IMG/VR virus record: IMGVR_UViG_3300050821_010575
Coordinates: 1 to 29,437 of that record
From: a virus
Length of the DNA stretch: 29,437 nt
Strand: one strand, 5' to 3'
This document shows, piece after piece, positions 2,571 to 29,437 of the stretch (position 1 is its first letter; each line of letters opens with the position of its first letter). The translations under genes and the position numbers were made by a program. Below the pieces are notes generated by a model. The model saw nothing but the letters and a program-made list of their open reading frames with translations, ran no database searches and was not told where the DNA came from.

Positions 2571-2574
2571 GAAG

Positions 2575-2648
2575 TGGCGGGGGTGGGATTTGAACCCACG
2601 ACCTCGTGGTTATGAGCCACGCGAGCTACCGAGCTGCTCCACCCCGCT
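2575..2648 (-). tRNA. tRNA-Met (CAT anticodon), initiator-like
   Basis: Read on the minus strand, the segment folds as a full cloverleaf. The D-arm has GAGC/GCTC, the anticodon stem is CGTGG/CCACG with loop CTCATAA (anticodon CAT), the variable loop is AGGTC, and the T-arm is GTGGG/CCCAC with loop TTCAAAT. The acceptor pairs GCGGGG/CCCCGC, but positions 1 and 72 are A and C, which do not pair. A11:U24 and an unpaired 1:72 are marks of bacterial initiator tRNAs. The three consecutive G:C pairs of the initiator anticodon stem are not all kept (U29:A41, G30:C40, G31:C39). No CCA is encoded (A73 is followed by CTTC). It lies between the capsid and glycosyltransferase genes in the same orientation and is probably cut out of the structural mRNA. 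Confidence 0.93.
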
Positions 2649-4965: not shown

Positions 4966-5196
4966 CTACTCGCCGTCGTCGCGCTTCCGATCCATCTTCG
5001 GCTCGCCGTGCTTGCGCTCGGCGGCCGGCTCTTCGCGCTTCCGCTCTCCCTTCGGCTCGTTGCGCGGGGCTCCCATCGGATCGACGGTCGAGTCCATCAC
5101 GCGCTTGGCGACGTCGCTGTGTCGCGACATGTCGCTCTCGCCGTCCCGCTTGCGACCCTTCTCCTCCTTCGCGTCCGGCATCTTTTCCTTGGCCAT
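4966..5196 (-). CDS. Small highly charged protein upstream of protease
   Basis: 76 aa, dominated by Lys, Arg, Glu and Asp (for example K-E-K-M-P-D-A-K-E-E-K-G-R-K-R) and probably disordered. GGAG lies about 8 nt before the ATG, the stop is 4 nt from the protease start, and a promoter-like site lies at 5241-5269, so it is probably the first gene of a protease-capsid sub-operon. I do not recognise a family. Scaffold-associated or head-decoration roles are possible from position only. Confidence 0.7.
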   Translation of the reverse strand: MAKEKMPDAKEEKGRKRDGESDMSRHSDVAKRVMDSTVDPMGAPRNEPKGERKREEPAAERKHGEPKMDRKRDDGE

Positions 5197-5293: not shown

Positions 5294-5313
5294 AGGTCAC
5301 ACCGAGCGTCACT
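5294..5313 (+). repeat. Copy C of the GGTCAC tandem motif (partial)
   Basis: The 20 nt from AGGTCACACCGAG onward match the outer arm of the two inverted composite repeats at 21414-21469 and 25395-25450, except for C in place of G at one position. It contains two (G/C)GTCAC half-sites 12 nt apart. The second arm of the composite repeat is absent here. It lies between the stop at 5337 and the promoter at 5241-5269. Confidence 0.6.
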
Positions 5314-5336
5314 CGTGCGTCCAGGTGATGCTTCGA

Positions 5337-9388: not shown

Positions 9389-9996
9389 GCCATCCTCAGC
9401 TCTGGGTACCGCTGGTAGAACCGCTCTCGCTCCGTGGGCATGTCGATCCGCTGCATGTGCTGTTCTGCGTGAGCGCGGTAGTTCCAGAGCGGCGACCTAA
9501 CGCAGGCCCACACCGCGCCGGCCTTGAACAGCTCGTATCGCGACGCCCAGTCGCTGTACGCCAGTTCGTTGCCAGCCTTCTCAACCGCGTCGATGAAGCG
9601 CGTTCGGCGGATCAGGGACGTGAACCAAGCGACGGGGCCGCGCCGCAGGTTCTCAAGCGTGAAGTGCGGGGCGCAGTATCGCGCGCTTCGCTGCCCAAAC
9701 TCCTGCACGTCGCTGTAGACGAGATCCGCTCCGATGCGATCAGCGGCGGCGAGAAACTCGCGCAGCGCATCTGGTGCCCGCAGCGTGTCGTCATCACACA
9801 GTGGCAGGATATACTCGCCCTTTGCGAGCCGCGCCAGGTCGACGATCTTCTCGTGGTACGGAAAGCTCGACATGCTGATGAGGACCTGCACCTGCTCCTT
9901 CAGCAGGTCCTGCGCCTCGACCGAGGCCAGCGTCTCACGCAGCATCGCCGCTCTTTCGCCGCCAGACGGGATGAGGACGCTGACGCGAGGGTTCAG
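9385..9996 (-). CDS. GT2-type glycosyltransferase inserted between terminase genes
   Basis: I extend this gene to a CTG codon at 9996-9994, which overlaps the terminator codon of the small-terminase gene as CTGA with AAGGA 9 nt upstream. This gives 203 aa starting N-P-R-V-S-V-L-I-P-S-G-G, the first beta strand that GT-A enzymes need; starting at ATG 9945 would remove it. Other GT2 features: L-R-E-T-L-A-S-V-E-A-Q, then G-E-Y-I-L-P-L-C-D-D-D-T-L with the metal-binding D-D-D, and a late W-N-Y-R-A-H. It probably transfers a sugar to an unknown acceptor. Its place between the two terminase genes is unusual, and tight overlaps at both ends show it is integrated in the operon. Confidence 0.75.
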   Translation of the reverse strand: MNPRVSVLIPSGGERAAMLRETLASVEAQDLLKEQVQVLISMSSFPYHEKIVDLARLAKGEYILPLCDDDTLRAPDALREFLAAADRIGADLVYSDVQEFGQRSARYCAPHFTLENLRRGPVAWFTSLIRRTRFIDAVEKAGNELAYSDWASRYELFKAGAVWACVRSPLWNYRAHAEQHMQRIDMPTERERFYQRYPELRMA

Positions 9997-10538
9997 AACT
10001 CGCCGTCCTTGGCCGCGATCTGGGCTGGCGGTAGGGCGGGCTGCACCTCGCGACCCGACATGCGCTCTGCAGCCTCACGAACAGCGTCGAGCAGCTTCAT
10101 GCGCGGATCTTCGCTGCCGAAGTTGAAGTTGTACGTATCGCCGCTCGCTGGCAGCTGCGAGGCCTTCTCGTTCAGCAGCTGCTCGCTCAGGTGCAGCAGC
10201 ATCGGGACGTTGCCCCTCATCGCGACGCGCCATCTCACCCGTCGAAGCGCGATCAGCGACTCTTCGCGCCCCTGCTCAGTGATGCGGCCGTACTGCGCCT
10301 TGAAGTCTGCGATCGGCACGTCGATGACCTTCGCGATCTCGTCGTCGGTCATGTACAGCGCTGCGAGGCGCCGCACCATCTCCGGGTCGATGGGGCGCTC
10401 TCGAAAGTCCTGGTTCTCGAGCGGGTCGAGAACCTCGCTCTCGAACAGGTCAGCCGGCAGCCGTCGTGGGATCGACGCGTCGAGGAGCGTCTCTCTGCGC
10501 CGCCGCTGTCGGTGAAGGCCTTCCGCTGCCACGCGCAC
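9993..10538 (-). CDS. terS: Terminase small subunit-like protein
   Basis: 181 aa. The central part has a helix-turn-helix-like stretch (M-V-R-R-L-A-A-L-Y-M-T-D-D-E-I-A-K-V) followed by I-T-E-Q-G-R-E-E-S-L-I-A-L-R-R and A-M-R-G-N-V-P-M-L-L-H-L-S-E-Q-L-L, a pattern I know from small-terminase-like proteins that recognise packaging sites. It is the first gene of the leftward structural operon and is followed (after the GT) by the large terminase. The start may be GTG 10538 or the in-frame GTG at 10532-10530; the latter is better spaced (8 nt) from AAGGA. The C-terminus (P-A-L-P-P-A-Q-I-A-A-K-D-G-E-F) is a flexible tail. Confidence 0.75.
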   Translation of the reverse strand: MRVAAEGLHRQRRRRETLLDASIPRRLPADLFESEVLDPLENQDFRERPIDPEMVRRLAALYMTDDEIAKVIDVPIADFKAQYGRITEQGREESLIALRRVRWRVAMRGNVPMLLHLSEQLLNEKASQLPASGDTYNFNFGSEDPRMKLLDAVREAAERMSGREVQPALPPAQIAAKDGEF

Positions 10539-10568
10539 CGTCCTTGGTCAGTGATGATCGATCTAGGC

Positions 10569-10597
10569 AACATAGCACATGTGTGGCCAAAAGTACA
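10569..10597 (-). promoter_or_regulatory. Promoter-like site, leftward, for the structural operon
   Basis: The minus strand reads TGTACT, 17 nt, TATGTT, with the -10 about 30 nt before the small-terminase start. Hexamers and spacing match the other promoter-like sites. Being the only such site upstream of the terminase genes, it is the best candidate for the head-operon promoter and is divergent from the site at 11339-11367. Confidence 0.6.
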
Positions 10598-11246
10598 CAG
10601 GTGTCACCTCGAGTCACGGCAGGACGGCAAGGACTGGCCCACCGCGCCCGGGTAGTTATAAACATGCATGTGCCCGAGCGCTGCGCCATGGGCTGGTAAC
10701 CCCCTAAAGATGCAAGGATAGGCCATTCGAGATGCCTCAAGCACACTTCTAATCTCAAGCCAGGGTTACATGGGTTACAGGGTTACACGACCCTCTAGCT
10801 GGTAAGGACAGCGACGACGCTTTCGCTAAGTTGTTGCCCTGGCTACCCTTGCACCTTAGTGACCCACCCAAAGCCCGCGTTGCCGTGTAACTTCCTTGTA
10901 ACTTCACCTTGTAACAAAAAGTCACTTTTTGCAGCTGTAAGTGATTGCTGCCAAATGCTTTAGTGACGTGTAACCCCTGCTGCGCGTTACTCTTATGACA
11001 CAGGACTCAAATAGTAACTCGTATGTAGGTTTTGAGCTCACCCCTTGACCAGGCTACGCCTTGCCCCAGGCCTTCGTACGCCCTGCCATCGGCTTGTAAC
11101 CCCGACTGCTCACCCGGGGTGACTGCGGGTTACAGTGGGGTTACAAGCCTCTACGTTGTTTAGCACGAACCACTTGCAGCGTACGATTTGTGATATTGTT
11201 AACAACTGAAGTTACAAGCGGGTTACAGCTCCTGCGCAGCGAGGCG

Positions 11247-11270
11247 TGTCACTCGCTCAGTCGAGTGACA
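11247..11270. promoter_or_regulatory. Perfect 9-bp inverted repeat
   Basis: TGTCACTCG, six bases CTCAGT, then CGAGTGACA. No T-run follows in either direction, so it looks like an operator or extrudable hairpin within the control region rather than a terminator. It lies about 70 nt upstream of the rightward promoter-like site. A smaller inverted repeat (GAAAC-GCTA-GTTTC, 11322-11335) lies between the two. Confidence 0.5.
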
Positions 11271-11338
11271 GTCCCGCGTCGCGTGTCTTTTGCTCCCCAA
11301 TAAACAGCCGTGTACTCAAAAGAAACGCTAGTTTCCTG

Positions 11339-11367
11339 TGTACTTTTCGTGAGATAGGTGTTAGGTT
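11339..11367 (+). promoter_or_regulatory. Promoter-like site, rightward, for the small-gene operon
   Basis: TGTACT, 17 nt, TAGGTT, followed by GAGCTC. It is nearly the same as the site at 20101-20129 (TGTACTTTTC and GTGTTAGGTT in both). It would drive the operon beginning at 11530, leaving a leader of about 155 nt that includes a GGGTTACA copy at 11425. Confidence 0.65.
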
Positions 11368-11529
11368 GAGCTCACATGAAGGTGCAAGCATCTCGTTCGG
11401 CGTAGCGCTGGGGGCCTAGCCCGCGGGTTACAGCCATCCTCACTTGGAAACGCGTAGGCATACGTCGCAAGTGGCAGCGCTCCGCCGAACGAAGCTCGCT
11501 CAAGACACTTCTATTAGAGAGGAGATCCG

Positions 11530-20944: not shown

Positions 20945-21415
20945 ATGACGGAGCGGAACTGGTGGTCCAACCACGTTCGGCCGGCGCTGCACCGGCCAGC
21001 TGAGCGGTGCGTCGCTGAGAAAACTCAGGACGCGTTTAGAAAGGGCGCGCCTGACGTGACCATGTGCGCGCGCGGCAAGGTGCTTCTCTTGGAGCTGAAG
21101 TTCGTCGACGCGCTGCCGAAGCGGATCACCGATCGGCCCTACGACCTCGGCCTCACCGCCGAGCAGCGCATCTGGCTGGAGGCCTGGTACCAAGCGGAGG
21201 GCCGCAGTGGCGTGCTGGTCGGCGTCGAGGATGGCCGCTGCTTCTACGTCGGCTGGCGCATCGCCCGTGACCCGTGGACCTGGGGCAACCTCGAGACGAT
21301 GGTGACCTGGCTCAGGTGGAAAGGCGTGGGCCAGGAGCCCAAGCTCTCACTGCTTCCGAAGCTCCTGGCCACCGGGGCCCTCGACGCGCACAGCGCCCTG
21401 CCGGCAGTGCTCTAG
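20945..21415 (+). CDS. PD-(D/E)XK (VRR-NUC-like) nuclease
   Basis: 156 aa. R-K-G-A-P-D-V (D37) followed by L-L-L-E-L-K (E50, K52) is the PD-(D/E)XK active-site arrangement, and the later L-T-A-E-Q-R-I-W-L-E-A-W and G-V-L-V-G-V resemble the Q-containing helix and last strand of VRR-NUC/Holliday-junction resolvase-like phage nucleases. Probable role in recombination, branched-DNA resolution or DNA degradation. Its stop codon overlaps repeat A. Confidence 0.75.
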   Translation: MTERNWWSNHVRPALHRPAERCVAEKTQDAFRKGAPDVTMCARGKVLLLELKFVDALPKRITDRPYDLGLTAEQRIWLEAWYQAEGRSGVLVGVEDGRCFYVGWRIARDPWTWGNLETMVTWLRWKGVGQEPKLSLLPKLLATGALDAHSALPAVL

Positions 21416-21469
21416 GTCACACCGAGGGTCACTGTCTCACAGCAGGATGATAGGTACTATTCACCCCGG
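21414..21469 (+). repeat. Composite inverted repeat, copy A
   Basis: A 21-nt arm starting AGGTCACACCGAGG, then 12 variable nt, then a 23-nt arm containing ATAGGTACTATTCACC. Copy B at 25395-25450 is identical in both arms, has the same 12-nt gap and the opposite orientation. Outer arm: GGTCAC twice, 12 nt apart. Inner arm: ATAG-N3-CTAT dyad. It begins on the stop codon of the nuclease gene. Confidence 0.8.
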
Positions 21470-21479
21470 TGAGCGCAAA

Positions 21480-21507
21480 CCTGGGCCCCTGTGCAAGCGG
21501 GCCCAGG
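21480..21507 (-). terminator. Terminator-like hairpin after the DUF932 gene
   Basis: CCTGGGCCC, a 10-nt loop, GGGCCCAGG: a perfect 9-bp stem 7 nt past the DUF932 stop, followed in the leftward transcript by TTTGCG. It lies between convergent genes and could stop transcription in both directions. Confidence 0.6.
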
Positions 21508-21514
21508 CTCGGTG

Positions 21515-22519
21515 TCAGCTGCCGATGAGCTCGAGCAGCCTGTTCTTGGCCGTCAGCTTCAGGCTCTGCCCACCACCCAGCCAGGCGTAGTTGAGCCGGC
21601 TGTTCGCGGAGCGACCACGCTCGTGGTCGAAGTACTCCGTGACCGCGTTCAGGAGCCCCCACGCGGTGCCCTTCGCCGAGGGAAGATCGGCGCCCTTCGC
21701 CTCGCCGCCGAACAGCTTCAGCACCCGGTCCACCGGCTTCGGCGCGTCCTCGATCTTCTCGCGATCCGCGGTCGGGGCGAAGAGGTTGTAGCTGAAGTCG
21801 ACGGCGGTGAGGTAGTCGATCTGCGCCGCGCTGAGCTTCTTCGCCTCTTCCGCGCTGCGGACCAGCTTCTCCTTGCTCAGGTTCAGCCGCTCGCGGATCT
21901 CCTCCATCCGGCCCTCGCTGAGCTCGGCCGTGTGCCAGAGCTGCACGGAGCTGCCGCGGCCGCCGAGCGCCATGGTCATCGTGTTCTGGCAGACGACCCG
22001 GATCTCGGTGAGCTTCGCGATCATGCCCTTGCCGTACTGGTGGGGGTTCATGAGCAGCACGTAGCCGTCGCTCTTGTCCGGTTGAGCGGCCGTGCCGACG
22101 TCGAAGCCAACTCCGAGCTTCGCCAGAGCCCAGATGTTCTGGCCCCCGTTCAGGCTGCCAGCCGTCTCGATGTGCATGTCGCCGGCCTCGACGTACTTGC
22201 GGAAGAAGTCGAGGATCTGGCGGTTCTGGAACGGAACGTAGTCCGGGCCGACCAGCGTCAGCGGCTTGTTCGTGTCGCCGCGGAGCAGGAAGCGGTGCCG
22301 GGACTCGACGAGCATGCCGCCGTTCAGCGCGCCGTCGTCCTTCGTGGGAACGCGGTAGCAGGCCGGCACGAGGTTGACCTGCCAGTCGAGGTGCGCGGCC
22401 TTCTCGATCTCCTCGATCGTGGCGCCCTTTTTGACCTCCTGCCCGAGCCCGTGCCAGGGCTTCTCACCGACGTAGGCCATCGCGGCGTTCCCGTTCGTCT
22501 CATCGATCGCGTGTGACAT
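21515..22519 (-). CDS. DUF932 phage/plasmid-like protein (TIGR03299 type)
   Basis: 334 aa from ATG 22519-22517, with AGAGGAGA 7 nt upstream; a frame extension to 22624 runs through the promoter and is rejected. The N-terminus M-S-H-A-I-D-E-T-N-G, then E-K-P-W-H-G-L-G, and later D-Y-V-P-F-Q-N-R, C-Q-N-T-M-T-M-A-L and the C-terminal N-A-V-T-E-Y-F-D-H-E-R-G-R-S-A-N-S-R match this family, widespread in phages and plasmids but of unknown biochemical function. The Leu/Lys helix in the middle fits the family. It is the last gene of the leftward cassettes and has its own promoter. Confidence 0.9.
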   Translation of the reverse strand: MSHAIDETNGNAAMAYVGEKPWHGLGQEVKKGATIEEIEKAAHLDWQVNLVPACYRVPTKDDGALNGGMLVESRHRFLLRGDTNKPLTLVGPDYVPFQNRQILDFFRKYVEAGDMHIETAGSLNGGQNIWALAKLGVGFDVGTAAQPDKSDGYVLLMNPHQYGKGMIAKLTEIRVVCQNTMTMALGGRGSSVQLWHTAELSEGRMEEIRERLNLSKEKLVRSAEEAKKLSAAQIDYLTAVDFSYNLFAPTADREKIEDAPKPVDRVLKLFGGEAKGADLPSAKGTAWGLLNAVTEYFDHERGRSANSRLNYAWLGGGQSLKLTAKNRLLELIGS

Positions 22520-22589
22520 GTTCGAATCTCCTCTCTGGTGGTGCATGGTGCCGCGGCCCGAGTGGCGTTGGCGTTGTGCTACAGAGCTG

Positions 22590-22618
22590 AACCTAACACT
22601 GATGCGGTTGAAAGTACA
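22590..22618 (-). promoter_or_regulatory. Promoter-like site for the DUF932 gene
   Basis: Minus strand: TGTACT, 17 nt, TAGGTT, followed by CAGCTC. AATGTAACAA lies just upstream (GTTACA on plus at 22635-22640), 16 nt from the -35, and overlaps the last codons of the zinc-ribbon gene. AGAGGAGA of the DUF932 gene lies downstream. Confidence 0.65.
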
Positions 22619-22627
22619 TCGCATCAG

Positions 22628-22801
22628 CTATATTGTTACATTGGGCTCCGGGACGACCTCGCCGCAGTACAGGCAGACCTTCACCGGCTCGACCATCTCC
22701 TTGCAGGTCTCGCAGACCCGCATATCGGGATCGACGGCGCGCTGGCAAAACGGGCACTCCAGCGAGATGTCCTCGTGCTGGCACTCTGATGGTTGCGTCA
22801 T
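22628..22801 (-). CDS. Small zinc-ribbon-like protein
   Basis: 57 aa from ATG 22801-22799, overlapping the stop of the upstream gene (ATGA). It has three CxxC pairs (E-C-P-F-C-Q near 15-18, V-C-E-T-C-K near 29-32, V-C-L-Y-C-G near 43-46) plus C7 and H9. These could bind two zinc ions, as in double zinc-ribbon proteins. Function unknown; it may bind nucleic acid or RNA polymerase. A longer in-frame start at 22921 would overlap the neighbour and is rejected. Confidence 0.7.
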   Translation of the reverse strand: MTQPSECQHEDISLECPFCQRAVDPDMRVCETCKEMVEPVKVCLYCGEVVPEPNVTI

Positions 22802-23040
22802 GACATGTTCTCCATGATCAGCGCGACGCAACCTGCTGCGGCAGCGAGCTCGAACGCCTCGTGCTCGAAGAAGTCCTCGGCCGGGTGAGCGTAGTAGAAC
22901 GTGGCCGTCTCCTCCAGCCAAGCGCGAAACTCCGCGCTGCGCTCGACGAAGCGATCATGAGGCAGCGGGTACATGTTCTGCGGCTGGAACTTCGCGGGGA
23001 TCTGCGCTTCCGTGAGAATCACGATCTCGGTCTGCGGCAT
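22798..23040 (-). CDS. Unknown small protein
   Basis: 80 aa from ATG 23040, with AGAGAGGAGAGAGG 6 nt upstream. Starts M-P-Q-T-E-I-V-I-L-T-E-A-Q-I-P, is aromatic-rich in the middle (F-R-A-W-L-E-E-T-A-T-F-Y-Y-A), and ends hydrophobic (A-A-A-A-G-C-V-A-L-I). First gene of a two-gene cassette with the zinc-ribbon gene. No family recognised. Confidence 0.7.
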   Translation of the reverse strand: MPQTEIVILTEAQIPAKFQPQNMYPLPHDRFVERSAEFRAWLEETATFYYAHPAEDFFEHEAFELAAAAGCVALIMENMS

Positions 23041-23088
23041 CTGACCTCTCTCCTCTCTGGCGTGTGTCCAGCAACATCATCTGAGCTG

Positions 23089-23117
23089 AATCTAATGCAT
23101 GACATTGAGGATGTACA
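23089..23117 (-). promoter_or_regulatory. Promoter-like site for the 80-aa/zinc-ribbon cassette
   Basis: Minus strand: TGTACA, 17 nt, TAGATT, followed by CAGCTC. AATGTAACAA lies 15 nt upstream of the -35 (23133-23138 for GTTACA). Directly before that lies the hairpin at 23146-23228. Confidence 0.65.
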
Positions 23118-23145
23118 CTGCCTCGGAAACTTGTTACATTGGCCC

Positions 23146-23228
23146 GTAGGAGCTCCCAAGCCGGCAGCTAATAGAACCATATTAGCGTACCGGCTTGAGA
23201 CCACCTCCATGAACCGAGGAGCTGCTAC
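23146..23228 (-). terminator. Nested hairpin at the end of the AAA+ ATPase gene
   Basis: Three nested pairings: GTAGGAGCTCC with GGAGCTGCTAC (10 of 11 bp; the second arm overlaps the ATPase stop), AAGCCGG with CCGGCTT (7 bp), and GCTAATA with TATTAGC (7 bp), closing a loop GAACCA. The promoter-like cassette starts right after it. There is no U-run, so it may be a factor-dependent terminator or processing site. The hairpin at 25018-25082 also contains GAACCA. Confidence 0.6.
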
Positions 23229-24925
23229 TCCTGCGTCGGCTTGAACCGCTTAGCGAACTCGATCGTTGCCAGATCGATCTCCTTGCCCTCGCTCTTGGCG
23301 ATCATCGATCCCAGCTTGAGCAGGTTCTTGATGTCGCGGCCCGTGAGCTTGGGATGCGCGGTCAGGATCTGCTCGATCGTCGCGTCGCTCAAGCTCAGCT
23401 TCGCGTTGTCGGCCAGCACGCGCCAGATCTTGCGCTGATCATCGACAGCGGGCGTGGCGTAGTCGATGCGCGCGATGCAGCGGCTGAGCACGGCGTCATC
23501 GATCAGATCCGCGCGGTTGGTCGTGAGGAACATCACGCCGCGGTAGTACTCGAGCACCCGCAGGAAGACGCCGACGATTGCGTTCTGCGTGAGATCAGAA
23601 CCACGCTTCGCGACGTAGACGTCCGCCTCGTCGAGCAGCAGGATAGCGCTCCACCGCTGCGAGCGAGCAAACACCTTGAGCAGCTCGGCTTCGAGCTCGT
23701 CAGGCGAGGTGCCCAGCTGGCTGCACTGGACCGTGTACAGCGGCTTGTGCGCGACCTCAGCGTAGACCTCGCTCGTGAGCGTCTTGCCGGTGCCAGGGAT
23801 GCCAGTGCATGCGATGATCGAGCCGCCGCCCTTGTTGCCGATGATGTCCTGAAAGCCGCCCGTGCCGGCCATGAGCAGGTCGACCAGATGACGGGCGTCC
23901 TTCGGCAGCACAAGCTTGCTGCCAAGCGTCGCGTCGTACACGTACTCCGTCAGCTGGTCGATGTAGACCTCCACCCGCAGCTGGCGGCTGAGATCAAACA
24001 CCATCAGCACGGTATGAAGCGGGATCTCGATGTAGGCGAGTGACTTGACTGGCTCTTCACCGCGAGCAGCGGCCTCCGCCTCGTCGTCCTCGTCTTTGGC
24101 CTCGTCCTTCTCACCAGCGCCAGGCAGCACGCCCCAGAAGTTCTCGTCGATGTCCGTGTCGCGCTCGAGTTTGTTGCGGCTACGGCTGCCGTGATCACCC
24201 TCGCTCGGGATGTCGATGACGACCCGCACGGCTGCGTCATCCTTATCCAGCTGCACGGCGCTCTGCTTCCGCCACCAGTCATCGCTAACCGCCTCGCTCA
24301 TGCCCTCACCGGTCGCTAGAAACTGCTTGCCGACGCAGTCAGATTCAGCTTCCCATCGCGCTTTGTCGCGCAGGTACGCTTCACGCAGCTCAGGCGTCTG
24401 CGTGACGTCCTTGCCGCGAACGTCTTCGAACCAGAACGTCAGATGACGGCTGCTGCGAACGCCGAAGCTCGAGTAGAGCAGCGAGATGTCGCAGTGCGCC
24501 GGCGTGACTCCACCGCCGTGGTGGCTGCACTTTGGCACGTACACGACGCTATTGACGTAGTACGGCAGCCAGCGCTCGTGATCTTTGATGTAGACGCGAT
24601 GGCCATCGACCGAGCGAAGGTGCTCTGTCAGCAGCGCGGTGAAGTGCGACATGTTGCGCGGCTTCTGACCGGCGGGGTTTTCCATCAGCTTCCGCCAGTT
24701 CGCGATGTCGTACAGCAGCGTCGCCGCGCCGCGGATCATCTGGCTGGAACCGCGGTCGAACGGCTTGACCAGCGCCTCGAGCTGCTCGACCTGCGCGGCA
24801 GTGTACTTGTTCAGCTCAAGCAGGACGTAGCTGCGATTGTAGAAGCTGTGCGTCTCGATCTGATACAGCCGCAGCTTGTCGAAGCCGATCGCCTGAGCCA
24901 GCGCCTTCGGGACCTTGATCTCCAT
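23225..24925 (-). CDS. AAA+ ATPase
   Basis: 566 aa from ATG 24925, with AGAGAGGAGAGAG 4 nt upstream. The C-terminal ATPase module has Walker A G-I-P-G-T-G-K-T at 375-382, Walker B I-L-L-L-D-E-A-D with D432 and E433, sensor-1-like T-T-N-R at 468-471, a candidate Arg finger near S-R-C-I-A-R (R482), and a helical lid. Residues 1 to about 340 form an N-terminal region with no motif I recognise, containing an acidic Asp/Glu/Ala stretch near 270-290. This suggests a remodelling ATPase (ring-forming) of a phage type whose partner is unknown. The adjacent promoters and the DUF932 gene suggest a common functional unit. Confidence 0.9.
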   Translation of the reverse strand: MEIKVPKALAQAIGFDKLRLYQIETHSFYNRSYVLLELNKYTAAQVEQLEALVKPFDRGSSQMIRGAATLLYDIANWRKLMENPAGQKPRNMSHFTALLTEHLRSVDGHRVYIKDHERWLPYYVNSVVYVPKCSHHGGGVTPAHCDISLLYSSFGVRSSRHLTFWFEDVRGKDVTQTPELREAYLRDKARWEAESDCVGKQFLATGEGMSEAVSDDWWRKQSAVQLDKDDAAVRVVIDIPSEGDHGSRSRNKLERDTDIDENFWGVLPGAGEKDEAKDEDDEAEAAARGEEPVKSLAYIEIPLHTVLMVFDLSRQLRVEVYIDQLTEYVYDATLGSKLVLPKDARHLVDLLMAGTGGFQDIIGNKGGGSIIACTGIPGTGKTLTSEVYAEVAHKPLYTVQCSQLGTSPDELEAELLKVFARSQRWSAILLLDEADVYVAKRGSDLTQNAIVGVFLRVLEYYRGVMFLTTNRADLIDDAVLSRCIARIDYATPAVDDQRKIWRVLADNAKLSLSDATIEQILTAHPKLTGRDIKNLLKLGSMIAKSEGKEIDLATIEFAKRFKPTQE

Positions 24926-24961
24926 CGTTCTCTCTCCTCTCTGAAGTGGTTGACCTGCTCG

Positions 24962-24990
24962 AATCTAGCAAGCGGCGATCTGAAAGTACA
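24962..24990 (-). promoter_or_regulatory. Promoter-like site for the AAA+ ATPase gene
   Basis: Minus strand: TGTACT, 17 nt, TAGATT, followed by CGAGC. AATGTAACAA lies 16 nt upstream of the -35 (GTTACA at 25007-25012). The 16 nt TTGTTACATTGGCCCG are identical at 23131-23146 and 25005-25020, so the upstream part is a copied module. Confidence 0.65.
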
Positions 24991-25017
24991 CAGCGTCAGG
25001 CATCTTGTTACATTGGC

Positions 25018-25082
25018 CCGTGAGGTCATTGGCCGGCTTGGATGATGAACCATATAAGCCAACCTGGCCGATGACCTCACGG
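25018..25082 (-). terminator. Long hairpin between the 73-aa gene and the ATPase promoter
   Basis: The 17-nt arms CCGTGAGGTCATTGGCC and GGCCGATGACCTCACGG pair along their full length in RNA with one G-U pair. An inner pairing GGCTT/AAGCC encloses a loop containing GAACCA. It lies 34 nt after the stop of the upstream gene, directly before the conserved promoter module. It is probably a terminator (no U-run) or RNase III-type processing site separating cassettes. Confidence 0.7.
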
Positions 25083-25116
25083 TGACCCTGGCGATCAGCC
25101 GGCCTGCGCCAGAGGC

Positions 25117-25338
25117 TCATGATACCTCGACCGTGAACCCCTCCTCGAGGTTCACGTAGTCGCCGACGCGATCCATGATCATGTAGTGGACCGTCTCTGA
25201 GTCGCGGGCCTCGTACACCTCTCCTGTCTTGCGGTGCCGGCAGGCGACCTTCGCCTGGCCCATGACGTGCTTGCGCGAGGCGTGCTGAAACCCGAGCACG
25301 CGCTGCGCCTCGGTTCTCGTGAGGAACTTCCGAGCCAT
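25117..25338 (-). CDS. Unknown small protein
   Basis: 73 aa from ATG 25338, GGAGGG about 9 nt upstream. M-A-R-K-F-L-T-R-T-E-A-Q-R-V-L-G-F is a helical start, H-R-K-T-G-E-V-Y-E-A a beta turn, and Y-V-N-L-E-E-G-F-T-V-E-V an acidic strand. No family recognised. It is the gene downstream of inverted repeat B and has no TGTACT-type promoter of its own. Confidence 0.65.
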   Translation of the reverse strand: MARKFLTRTEAQRVLGFQHASRKHVMGQAKVACRHRKTGEVYEARDSETVHYMIMDRVGDYVNLEEGFTVEVS

Positions 25339-25394
25339 CGGATCCGCCCTCCGTCGTGAAGTGAAGAAGCTCGCTCCAGCGTCGGAGACCTGCC

Positions 25395-25450
25395 CCGGGG
25401 TGAATAGTACCTATCATACAGCTGGTCTTCAGTGACCCTCGGTGTGACCT
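25395..25450 (-). repeat. Composite inverted repeat, copy B
   Basis: The reverse complement equals copy A (21414-21469) in both conserved arms (21 and 23 nt), with a different 12-nt middle. It lies between two leftward genes, 21 nt after the stop at 25472 and 56 nt before the start at 25338. Confidence 0.8.
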
Positions 25451-25720: not shown

Positions 25721-26368
25721 TTACAGCGTAACGCCGGTGTGCGCGAGCAGGCTCTTCACCTCTTTCAAGCTCAGCGTCGTCGTGAACTGGATCGTGGCGC
25801 GCTCGGCGCTGAAGCTCACGTCCCAGGTGTTGACGTCACCGAGGACGCAGCCGATCGAGGTCAGCGCGTCCATGGCGTCCTGCAGCGCGGCGCCGTCATC
25901 GATGCCATAGAACTTGAGGCGGTGCGGCTGTGGCAGCTCCAGCGTCGCCGTGGCGCGCTGCTGGCTGGCCTCGATCGCAGCGTGCTCAGCGCGGATGCCG
26001 GTCGGGTCGGCGGTCACCTGCGCGGCGACACGATGCTCGATCACTGCCGTATTGTCTTGTACAACGAAGATGACGTCCTCTTCCGTCAGAGGTGAGCCGT
26101 CATCTGGCAGCAGATTCGAGTTCGTGATCAGCTTCTCAATCGGCGGCAGCATGAGCTCCATAATATCGCGGCGCTGGATCTCTATCGCCGTCTTGGCCAG
26201 CGCTACCCACTCCCTGCTGGAGTGATTCGCGATGCTGGTGGCGTCAACGCGAACTGGCTGTGAAAGATCAGCGCCAGCGATGACGTAGTAGCCGTTGCCG
26301 CGAATCAGCTCGCCGTTGATGCCAGCCGCGCGAATCGCGGCTGTGACGCTCTTGGTCGTGAGGCGCAT
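25721..26368 (-). CDS. Unknown phage protein
   Basis: 215 aa. The N-terminus (T-T-K-S-V-T-A-A-I-R-A-A-G, then E-L-I-R-G-N-G-Y-Y-V-I-A-G) resembles the start of several uncharacterised phage proteins, and the rest is helical with a beta-rich C-terminal half. GGAGG lies 9 nt before the ATG, inside the end of the upstream gene. The stop codon overlaps a GGGTTACA site (25718-25725). Confidence 0.65.
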   Translation of the reverse strand: MRLTTKSVTAAIRAAGINGELIRGNGYYVIAGADLSQPVRVDATSIANHSSREWVALAKTAIEIQRRDIMELMLPPIEKLITNSNLLPDDGSPLTEEDVIFVVQDNTAVIEHRVAAQVTADPTGIRAEHAAIEASQQRATATLELPQPHRLKFYGIDDGAALQDAMDALTSIGCVLGDVNTWDVSFSAERATIQFTTTLSLKEVKSLLAHTGVTL

Positions 26369-26855: not shown

Positions 26856-27017
26856 TTACTGGCCTCTCTGGCGTGCCAGCGCGGCACGCCCCTCGGCCTG
26901 AAGCGCGTGCTTTCGCAGCTCCTTGAGCAGCTGCACCATGTTCTGTGCATCTCGTGCACTTTTTGCGTGCGACTTCACCCAGGCCCAGATCGCCTTCTTC
27001 ACCTCAGTCTCTGTCAT
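26856..27017 (-). CDS. Small protein downstream of DNA polymerase
   Basis: 53 aa from ATG 27017-27015, overlapping the polymerase stop (ATGA), to TAA 26858-26856. M-T-E-T-E-V-K-K-A-I-W-A-W-V-K-S-H-A is an amphipathic helix, followed by a second (M-V-Q-L-L-K-E-L-R-K-H-A-L-Q-A). It is coupled to the polymerase, so a polymerase accessory role is possible but unproven. Its 3' end contains a hairpin (26870-26890). Confidence 0.7.
   Translation of the reverse strand: MTETEVKKAIWAWVKSHAKSARDAQNMVQLLKELRKHALQAEGRAALARQRGQ
26870..26890 (-). terminator. Hairpin in the 3' end of the 53-aa gene
   Basis: GGCGTGCC, a 5-nt loop, GGCACGCC. It lies within the last 12 codons of the gene, upstream of the TAA and of the next promoter, so it may attenuate transcription leaving the polymerase operon. 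Confidence 0.45.
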
Positions 27018-29437
27018 TTTCTAGGCGGCAGCGGTTTACAGTCACCCCAGTTAGGGCCGACCTCAGCCTCAGCTCTTACTGGTACTCTGAGCTTAGCGAC
27101 GCTCTCCATGATCTCTTTGATCTTGTATGCTTCTCTAACTCCTTTTGCGCCTGGAGGGACTGTTGCATCGAGCTCATCGTGAATCGTGAGGTGCAGGATC
27201 GTGTTCTCGTAGTCGATCTCCTTGTCGACCGCGATCATCGCCAGCTTGATGAGATCCGCCGCTGAGCCTTGCGTCAGGTAGTTCAGCGCGTTGTTCGTGC
27301 GCGTGAACACGGTTCGACCGCTGACGTTCAGCGCCTGGAACCGGCAGCGCCGCCCGCCGTGCGTGATGATGTAGCCTCTCGCCGCGGCCTTGTTCATGGC
27401 TCTCTTCGCGAGGATTCGCGCCTCTGGGATCTGCTCGTGGTACGCGGCCAGCGCTGCGTTGGCTTGGTCAGGCGGTAGCCCCGTCTGCGCGGCCATCTTC
27501 TTCTCACCCATGCCGAAGAGGATGCCGAAGTTGATGTTCTTGGCCGGGTCGCGCGCCATGCCGGTCAGGTCCGCCACCATCTGGTGGAAGTCCACGTCCG
27601 GCTCGTTGACGTACCGCTGCATCACGGCGCCACCAGCGTAGTGCGCAAAAAGCCGATATTCGATCTGGCTGTTCGCTGAGATGACGCCAGCGCCAAGCGC
27701 GTAGTTGTGGTGCTCATCAACCGTGAGCTGGTACATCGGCAGCATCAAACCAAGGTCTTCGACGAGCGTGACCTTGTGGTTCAACCTTCTTCGCGGATGC
27801 GCTGCAAAGCACGCTGAGCAGCGCCTGCCTGGCCAGGCCTGAGATGGCCAGAGCTGCATCATGGTATCGCACTCTGTGCACTTGACCTCTATCTTTCCAC
27901 CTTTCCAGCGGGGGTTGCCTTCACCTGCGTAGGACCTTCTGGCTTTCAGACCGACGCGCAGCGCGGCGACTCTCTTTTCCTCATCGACGCCGGTCCAGGC
28001 ATCAAGAGCTCGATGAACGGATATCGGCAGATACTCGAGGTTGTCAGGGCCGTAGTTGTGAGCATCGCGATCTTTGTGGTGCACCTCGTGACCTGGAGGA
28101 CACGGCCCAAAGTGCGCTTCGGCCACGAGCCTGTGCAGCTTGCTGTAGAGCCTGTTAGACCAGCTGTAAAAGGTAGGGTATCCCTTCAAGCCGTCTGTGC
28201 CTTTCCTGATCGCCGCGAGCGAGTCACCTGGCGCCAGCGCGCTGATCTTGCGCAGCTCGCCATCGCGCATGACCATCTTGTGATCACCAGATGCGATGAT
28301 AGCCTCACCGCTGTCGAGCGTCAGGCGCCAGGCTGGCAGCATGCCGACGCAGGCGGACGCGCTCACGTTGCCCCAGGTGATGCGGCCGTTCTTCCAAGAG
28401 AACACCTTGTCACCTGGCATGATGTCCTTGATCTGCTTCTTGCCTCGCGTCGTTTCGACCTCAGTCTCTCCGGCGAGGCAGAAGTCACAGCGCAGCCACT
28501 GACCGCCATCGTAGGCCGGGATGAAGAGCCCGCGGATCAGCGGCGCCCAGACCTTGTCGCGCTTCGGGATGTTCTGCGCGTTGAGCCCGCCGGCAGAGCT
28601 GAACCGGCCCGTGCGCGCGCCGCCGAACGCGGACTTCGCCTGGTGGAACGAGGGGTGGATGAAGCTGTGCGGCGTGATGTTCTTGAAGATGTAGTTGTCG
28701 ATGAACACGTTGCTGTAGTGCTTCGCCTGCTTCGAGGTGATGATCAGCTTCGCGACTGGGTGCTCGACCGTCTTCAGGAAGTCCTTGGTCACTGACGCGT
28801 TGCCAGCCTCCGTCTTCGGCGCCGTGATGCCAAGGCTCTCCAGCAGCTGCGCGACCTGCGCTGTCGACTCGCAGTTGAGCTCCACGCCGTGGTTGAGCTT
28901 GAACAGCTCAGCCTGGGCCTCATCGCGGCGCTTCACGAGCTCGTGCTTCAGCTTCTCCGCCTTCTCCGCGTCGACCCGCACGCCAGCGCGATACATCCGC
29001 ACCAGCACCGGCATCAGCGCCCGCTCCATGTCGTGCACCGTCGTGAGCCCGTTGACCGCGATCTTGGGCTGTAGGCAGAGCCAGAGCAGCCGGGTCAGGT
29101 TCGCGTCCTGCTCAGCGTAGGGCTCGACCAGGTCGCCTGGGCACCTGTGATAGAAGCCAGCCTCCTTGCCCTTCTTCACGTCGAACACCTGTCTGCAGTA
29201 CTCGTTGAGGTCGTCTGAGGCCTTGACGTGCTGCGGGCCGAGGTGCTTGATGCACAGGTTCTCGAGGCTATAGCTGGGCTCGTACTCGTCAAGCAGCGCA
29301 GCGATGACGCAGGTGTCATCCACCTGCTCGGGCAGGTCAAACCCAACCGCGCGGATCATGCGCAGATCGTACACGGCGTTGTGGAACACGGCCAGCACGC
29401 CTCTCGCCACCTCCTTGTTCCACCACTCTCTCACCTG
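27014..29437 (-). CDS. polA: DNA polymerase I-family (family A) replicative polymerase with an intein; 5' end outside window
   Basis: At least 807 residues, cut at the right edge. Part of a 3'-5' exonuclease is visible (H-N-A-V-Y-D with N19 and D23, later Y-A-E-Q-D-A-N near 105-111). The polymerase has L-N-A-Q-N-I-P-K-R before motif A, R-D-P-A-K-N-I-N-F-G in motif B (R-x3-K) and I-H-D-E-L-D in motif C. Motif A (D-F/S-Q-I-E) is split between Phe and Ser by a 270-residue intein. Motif B ends F-G-I-L-F-G-M-G, with Phe where the family normally has Tyr (E. coli Y766). Without the intein it should be a functional replicative enzyme. Confidence 0.93.
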   Translation of the reverse strand, partial: QVREWWNKEVARGVLAVFHNAVYDLRMIRAVGFDLPEQVDDTCVIAALLDEYEPSYSLENLCIKHLGPQHVKASDDLNEYCRQVFDVKKGKEAGFYHRCPGDLVEPYAEQDANLTRLLWLCLQPKIAVNGLTTVHDMERALMPVLVRMYRAGVRVDAEKAEKLKHELVKRRDEAQAELFKLNHGVELNCESTAQVAQLLESLGITAPKTEAGNASVTKDFLKTVEHPVAKLIITSKQAKHYSNVFIDNYIFKNITPHSFIHPSFHQAKSAFGGARTGRFSSAGGLNAQNIPKRDKVWAPLIRGLFIPAYDGGQWLRCDFCLAGETEVETTRGKKQIKDIMPGDKVFSWKNGRITWGNVSASACVGMLPAWRLTLDSGEAIIASGDHKMVMRDGELRKISALAPGDSLAAIRKGTDGLKGYPTFYSWSNRLYSKLHRLVAEAHFGPCPPGHEVHHKDRDAHNYGPDNLEYLPISVHRALDAWTGVDEEKRVAALRVGLKARRSYAGEGNPRWKGGKIEVKCTECDTMMQLWPSQAWPGRRCSACFAAHPRRRLNHKVTLVEDLGLMLPMYQLTVDEHHNYALGAGVISANSQIEYRLFAHYAGGAVMQRYVNEPDVDFHQMVADLTGMARDPAKNINFGILFGMGEKKMAAQTGLPPDQANAALAAYHEQIPEARILAKRAMNKAAARGYIITHGGRRCRFQALNVSGRTVFTRTNNALNYLTQGSAADLIKLAMIAVDKEIDYENTILHLTIHDELDATVPPGAKGVREAYKIKEIMESVAKLRVPVRAEAEVGPNWGDCKPLPPRK
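27671..28480 (-). other. Intein with HNH endonuclease in polymerase motif A
   Basis: 270 aa in frame, beginning C-L-A-G-E-T-E-V (first splicing Cys) and ending G-A-G-V-I-S-A-N before Ser. Block B-like S-G-D-H-K-M lies near its residue 70. The middle has H-E-V-H-H-K-D-R-D-A-H-N-Y-G-P-D-N-L-E-Y-L, an HNH homing-endonuclease motif, and a C-x-x-C...C-x-x-C zinc-finger-like pair. Block F (M-Y-Q-L-T-V-D-E-H-H-N-Y-A-L-G) is clear. The residue before the final Asn is Ala instead of the usual His, known in some inteins but often linked to slower splicing. Complete endonuclease and splice ends suggest an active mobile intein. Confidence 0.93.

Follow-up and report, generated by a model that had tools for sequence, protein, structure and literature searches.

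What function, if any, is served by two inverted copies of one 56-nt sequence that bound a 4-kb segment of phage DNA? The segment carries a DUF932 gene, a zinc-ribbon gene, an AAA+ ATPase gene and two small genes. The original prediction saw in it an element moved in trans, or a cassette bounded by recombination or regulation, and proposed that DUF932 and the AAA+ ATPase could form one functional system. We analyzed the whole of the 29,437-base linear virus record that contains the pair (hereafter the window). Judging from the letters of this record and its comparison with others, we consider that the two copies, A and B, are probably two instances of one bipartite cis-acting site for the control of transcription, and put the probability of this reading at roughly 60%.

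The inverted pair and its surroundings

The window is a tailed-phage genome fragment. Leftward genes at 1-10.5 kb encode the terminase, the portal with head morphogenesis, the head protease and the major head protein. Early genes run rightward from 11.5 to 21.4 kb, and replication-type genes lie leftward between 29.4 and 21.5 kb, the last of them being DUF932. Copy A therefore lies at the tail-to-tail junction of the rightward and leftward blocks, and copy B lies within the leftward block, with one 73-aa gene on each side. The phage has no close relatives in the collections searched. The protein encoded at 20945-21415 had no relative among phages, and the neighbor protein encoded at 25721-26368 had none in viral contigs. 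Elsewhere in the window, a family A DNA polymerase (27014-29434, minus strand) is split by an HNH endonuclease-bearing intein, and a tRNA-Met gene (2574-2648, minus strand) adjoins the major head protein gene; a 61-bp piece of it is 90% identical to the tRNA-Met of Sinorhizobium phage phiLM21.

A repeat search of the whole window returned 21414-21469 on the plus strand (copy A) and 25395-25450 on the minus strand (copy B) as its longest inverted pair, 56 nt long, 88% complementary and 3925 nt apart. Each copy consists of a 21-nt outer block, AGGTCACACCGAGGGTCACTG, a 12-nt gap and a 23-nt inner block, ATGATAGGTACTATTCACCCCGG. Both blocks are identical between A and B, so the arms and gaps are as originally described. 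The two gaps differ (TCTCACAGCAGG and AAGACCAGCTGT) and have only CAGC in common. Identity breaks sharply at the gap and then returns, a pattern more readily explained by constraint on each of the two blocks than by recent copying.

When up to 3 mismatches were allowed, the outer block matched the window three times (shuffle mean 0.01; 0 of 100 shuffles reached 3) and a 19-nt core of the inner block matched it twice (shuffle mean 0.00). The third outer-block match (5294-5314), which the original prediction did not mention, is solitary, with no inner block adjoining it. Copies A and B each come after a same-strand stop codon (21415 and 25472, respectively) with the outer block first, and copy A shares bases with the stop codon of the abutting gene. 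Their opposite orientation is accounted for because each points along the gene that it follows, and it need not mark them as paired ends.

Features of the inverted pair and its surroundings, with the evidence for each
Feature	Positions	Strand	Evidence or remark
Solitary outer block	5294..5314	+	19/21; box pair 26 nt from TGTACA of gene 4966-5196 promoter
GTCAC-N5-GTCAC pair	10603..10617	+	5 nt from TGTACT of gene 9993-10538 promoter (first leftward packaging gene)
Gene abutting copy A	20945..21415	+	phrog_2165; full length vs L006 homolog
Copy A outer block	21414..21434	+	paired GTCAC boxes, 12-bp period; identical to B
Copy A variable gap, 12 nt	21435..21446	+	sequence comparison
Copy A inner block, GTAC center	21447..21469	+	identical to B
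DUF932 gene	21515..22519	-	PF06067 E 7e-42 on longer reading 21515-22624; phrog_1221
Promoter-like site of DUF932	22590..22645	-	TGTACT-N17-TAGGTT and mirrored AATGTAAC box
Zinc-ribbon gene	22628..22801	-	DZR E 2e-6 on longer reading 22628-22921
80-aa gene	22798..23040	-	no family match
Promoter-like site of 80-aa gene	23085..23140	-	mirrored AATGTAAC box
AAA+ ATPase gene	23225..24925	-	PF00004 E 4e-14; phrog_29662 E 9e-71
Promoter-like site of AAA+ gene	24962..25016	-	mirrored AATGTAAC box
73-aa gene	25117..25338	-	no family match
Copy B inner block, upstream of 73-aa gene	25395..25417	-	identical to A
Copy B variable gap, 12 nt	25418..25429	-	sequence comparison
Copy B outer block	25430..25450	-	identical to A

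The family search confirmed the gene content claimed for the segment. That the copies enclose exactly these five genes is a weak argument for a unit, because whole genes will lie between any two intergenic sites. The N-terminal half of the AAA+ ATPase has no assigned family. Two very stable hairpins at 25018-25082 and 23147-23202 on the minus strand follow the 73-aa and AAA+ genes (z of -5.9 and -4.8 for the stretches that hold them); the loop regions of both carry the 9-nt word ATATGGTTC, which occurs nowhere else in the window.

Box pairs and the promoter family of the phage

In A and B, the outer block contains two GTCAC boxes 12 bp apart (n7 between them). We counted 9 GTYAC pairs at 9-13 bp in the 2,523 bp of intergenic DNA and none in the 26,914 bp of coding DNA. 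The gene boundaries, and hence the intergenic set, were picked by us from mechanical ORFs, and the overlap of A with a stop codon led us to begin the intergenic piece there further left, at 21406. Shuffled intergenic pieces yielded a mean of 0.10 pairs and none of 1000 shuffles reached 9, for a pattern that was defined after the arms had been seen. Six of the nine pairs lie at 10539-11529, copies A and B account for two more, and the solitary copy (at 5296) supplies the last. With A, B and 10539-11529 set aside, one pair is left; 39 of 1000 shuffles reach this number, and thus the independent support from outside these places is modest. The stretch 10539-11529 is a 991-base noncoding hub with divergent operons on either side and many GGGTTACA boxes, and is possibly an origin or regulatory center.

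The stricter pattern GTCAC-N5-7-GTCAC occurs four times in the window, always in intergenic DNA, compared to five occurrences across 50 other loci that total 581 kb. All four pairs have a GTAC center no more than 26 nt away, compared to 24% of intergenic positions at this cutoff, which was chosen post hoc. Two of these GTAC centers are the -35 of recognized promoter-like sites of structural operons.

Eight intergenic promoter-like sites (three in the segment, the other five beyond it) have TGTACTTTy in common, with TGTACT and TAGRTT mostly 17 nt apart; the matrix that finds these sites was trained on the same eight. A TGTACT..TAGRTT promoter is present at 4/4 of the other transcription units read nearby (DUF932, 80-aa, AAA+ and 26548). 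The 73-aa gene has no such site, only copy B upstream, and because this gene lacks the usual phage promoter, copy B sits at the position expected for one. A and B themselves fall outside the promoter family (best -10 of 3.3 bits, no -35 at the proper distance), and a general promoter scan found no promoter at either copy. The promoter-family pattern had no match in viral contigs.

Before the DUF932, 80-aa and AAA+ genes, the mirrored box listed in the table stands on the far side of TGTACA/T. All three sites look mirror-symmetric, with a GTTACATT-type box, the common TGTACA/T center and a TTAGRTT-type box, as if each held two divergent promoters with one common -35.

How might a two-block site act here? 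If A and B are control sites, the outer block would be the docking site for a regulator that binds in tandem along a single DNA face. The AT-rich inner block, with its GTAC center, would be the part that faces the polymerase, and the variable 12 nt would form a spacer that is not read by sequence. Copy B would then control the 73-aa gene, and copy A would act where the rightward and leftward operons meet tail to tail. From this layout we infer that a regulator binds, that the site acts as a promoter or a roadblock, and in which direction it does so. Several observations count against this reading. As a promoter, copy A would fire antisense to DUF932; 44 identical bases are more than one would expect of a simple regulator site; neither A nor B belongs to the phage promoter family; and the 5294 site has the orientation relative to its gene opposite to that of A and B.

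Roadblock action is the main alternative inside the same general control-site reading. By analogy with phage L5, A and B could be stoperator-like, each an oriented repressor site that halts transcription arriving from the upstream gene. Both copies are placed for this, behind a same-strand stop codon with the outer block first, as in L5 according to the text of PMC9283540 available to us. However, the L5 site described there is 13 bp long and present in more than 20 copies, compared to only two full copies here, and the solitary half-copy has the reverse orientation with respect to its gene. We consider roadblocks of this kind unlikely. A broader proposal is that the long two-block site represents an undescribed control layer. 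Such sites would border a block of early genes, the three main ones driven by mirror-image promoters with one common -35, and would affect transcription as it exits the gene upstream. We advance this tentatively and with considerable doubt.

Gene order and gene content across the segment

If the pair were instead the terminal inverted repeats of a non-autonomous element, mobilized in trans by a transposase elsewhere, one would expect what gave rise to the idea: an inverted pair, identical outer ends and five enclosed genes. However, the 20 bases on each side of the pair have no common word of at least 5, so there is no target duplication of that size, shorter ones being beyond the reach of this test; the original prediction had also seen no clear duplication. 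The gene at end A is intact at full length, and aligns to its end with its homolog (156 vs 162 aa; 36% identity over 105 aa) in the viral contig L006, which has the closest DUF932 relative in viral contigs (48%). In L006, about 1.5 kb of other small ORFs separate DUF932 from this homolog. DUF932 faces it tail to tail, with a dCMP deaminase homolog behind it and the polymerase further on. Since DUF932 faces the same neighbor in both, the gene order across end A is old and unbroken. The terminase of this phage had no match in L006, and relatedness is therefore shown for the early region only. The polymerase homolog of L006 matches only the parts that flank the intein.

The ends and the interior also argue against an element. 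Each end has a sharply divergent 12 nt within it, the inside and outside of the segment have promoters in common, and third-position GC is similar (0.87 inside vs 0.84 outside). One end block was found alone, beside the promoter of another gene, as the original prediction would expect of ordinary regulatory sites in place of paired ends; this holds in this contig for the outer block, and no full copy stands alone. The proposed search for the arms in other genomes gave nothing, with three exact arm patterns unmatched in viral contigs and 76-bp queries unmatched for copy A in phages and for copy B in plasmids. Taken together, a mobilized element is very unlikely.

Recombinase sites would be another way to explain the inverted orientation and the conserved arms around a variable center. 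The 4 kb between them would invert and thereby switch the expression of five early genes. A recombinase core site would have inverted arms, though, and comparison by eye shows no reverse complementarity between the outer block and the inner one. The orientation of DUF932 to its neighbor is the same in L006, and no recombinase was recognized among the window proteins scanned, the record being a fragment. An invertible segment is thus highly improbable. Among the three readings originally offered, regulation is the one that we favor, and movement in trans and recombination boundaries both lose ground to the L006 synteny and the other observations above.

Least probable of all is that the copies form a structured RNA, or a terminator, within the 3' UTRs of two genes. 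A and B both follow a same-strand gene and allow CTG/CAG pairing across the gap by eye, but we reject this reading because they fold differently from one another and, on both strands, no better than shuffles (z -0.82 to 1.45), and neither has an Rfam match.

The idea of DUF932 and the AAA+ ATPase as one functional system finds no support in how these genes are distributed. Homologs of genes outside the segment are present at 8 of 35 DUF932 loci in viral contigs (tblastn E 1e-3). At the same threshold, other segment genes, AAA+ included, were found at 0/35, a count limited by the shortness of many loci and by the difficulty of detecting the three small proteins. Conversely, 0/8 loci of AAA+ relatives carry a DUF932 homolog, a family search detected DUF932 in 0/2 whole records of the nearest AAA+ relatives, and five annotated stretches around AAA+ relatives had no DUF932 neighbor. 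The AAA+ family also occurs in the jumbo Bacillus phages AR9 and PBS1 and in large plasmids and megaplasmids; against genome contigs, the AAA+ query found one weak relative (25%). At the DNA level, the only match of the 4-kb segment in phage records involved three Rhizobium phages and covered part of the AAA+ gene.

None of the gene-order, co-occurrence or GC results suggests a recent or functional cassette. Our literature search turned up no relevant work on DUF932 in connection with inverted repeats in phages, and nothing suitable on phage elements that lack a transposase. The tempting picture of a mobile DUF932 plus AAA+ system is therefore unsupported, and is replaced by a testable regulatory map.

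Comparison with known systems

Transposon terminal inverted repeats and MITE-like elements are alike to the pair described here in that inverted copies bound a gene-bearing segment. They differ in the features that we observe: no flanking duplication, a divergent block in each end, a half-copy elsewhere and an old gene order across one end.

The GlnR box of actinomycetes is GTnAC-n6-GTnAC, as given in the accessible part of PMC10704036. The outer block resembles it as a GTNAC direct repeat about one helical turn apart. The n6 spacing is exact in three GTTAC pairs within 10887-11226, whereas A and B have n7 in their outer block and a conserved inner block besides.

The stoperators and operators of cluster A mycobacteriophages such as L5 and TipsytheTRex offer a further comparison. 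In the available text of PMC9283540, the L5 stoperators are asymmetric, lie in short intergenic spaces and are in line with transcription. Like them, A and B are asymmetric, intergenic, placed at several points along the genome and oriented with transcription, which is true of A and B and false of the 5294 site. In contrast to 13-bp sites in more than 20 copies, the sites here measure 21+12+23 nt and occur in two full copies, and no L5-type repressor was identified in this phage fragment. Should A and B nonetheless act as roadblocks, oriented transcription-blocking sites would extend beyond the mycobacteriophages that this text describes.
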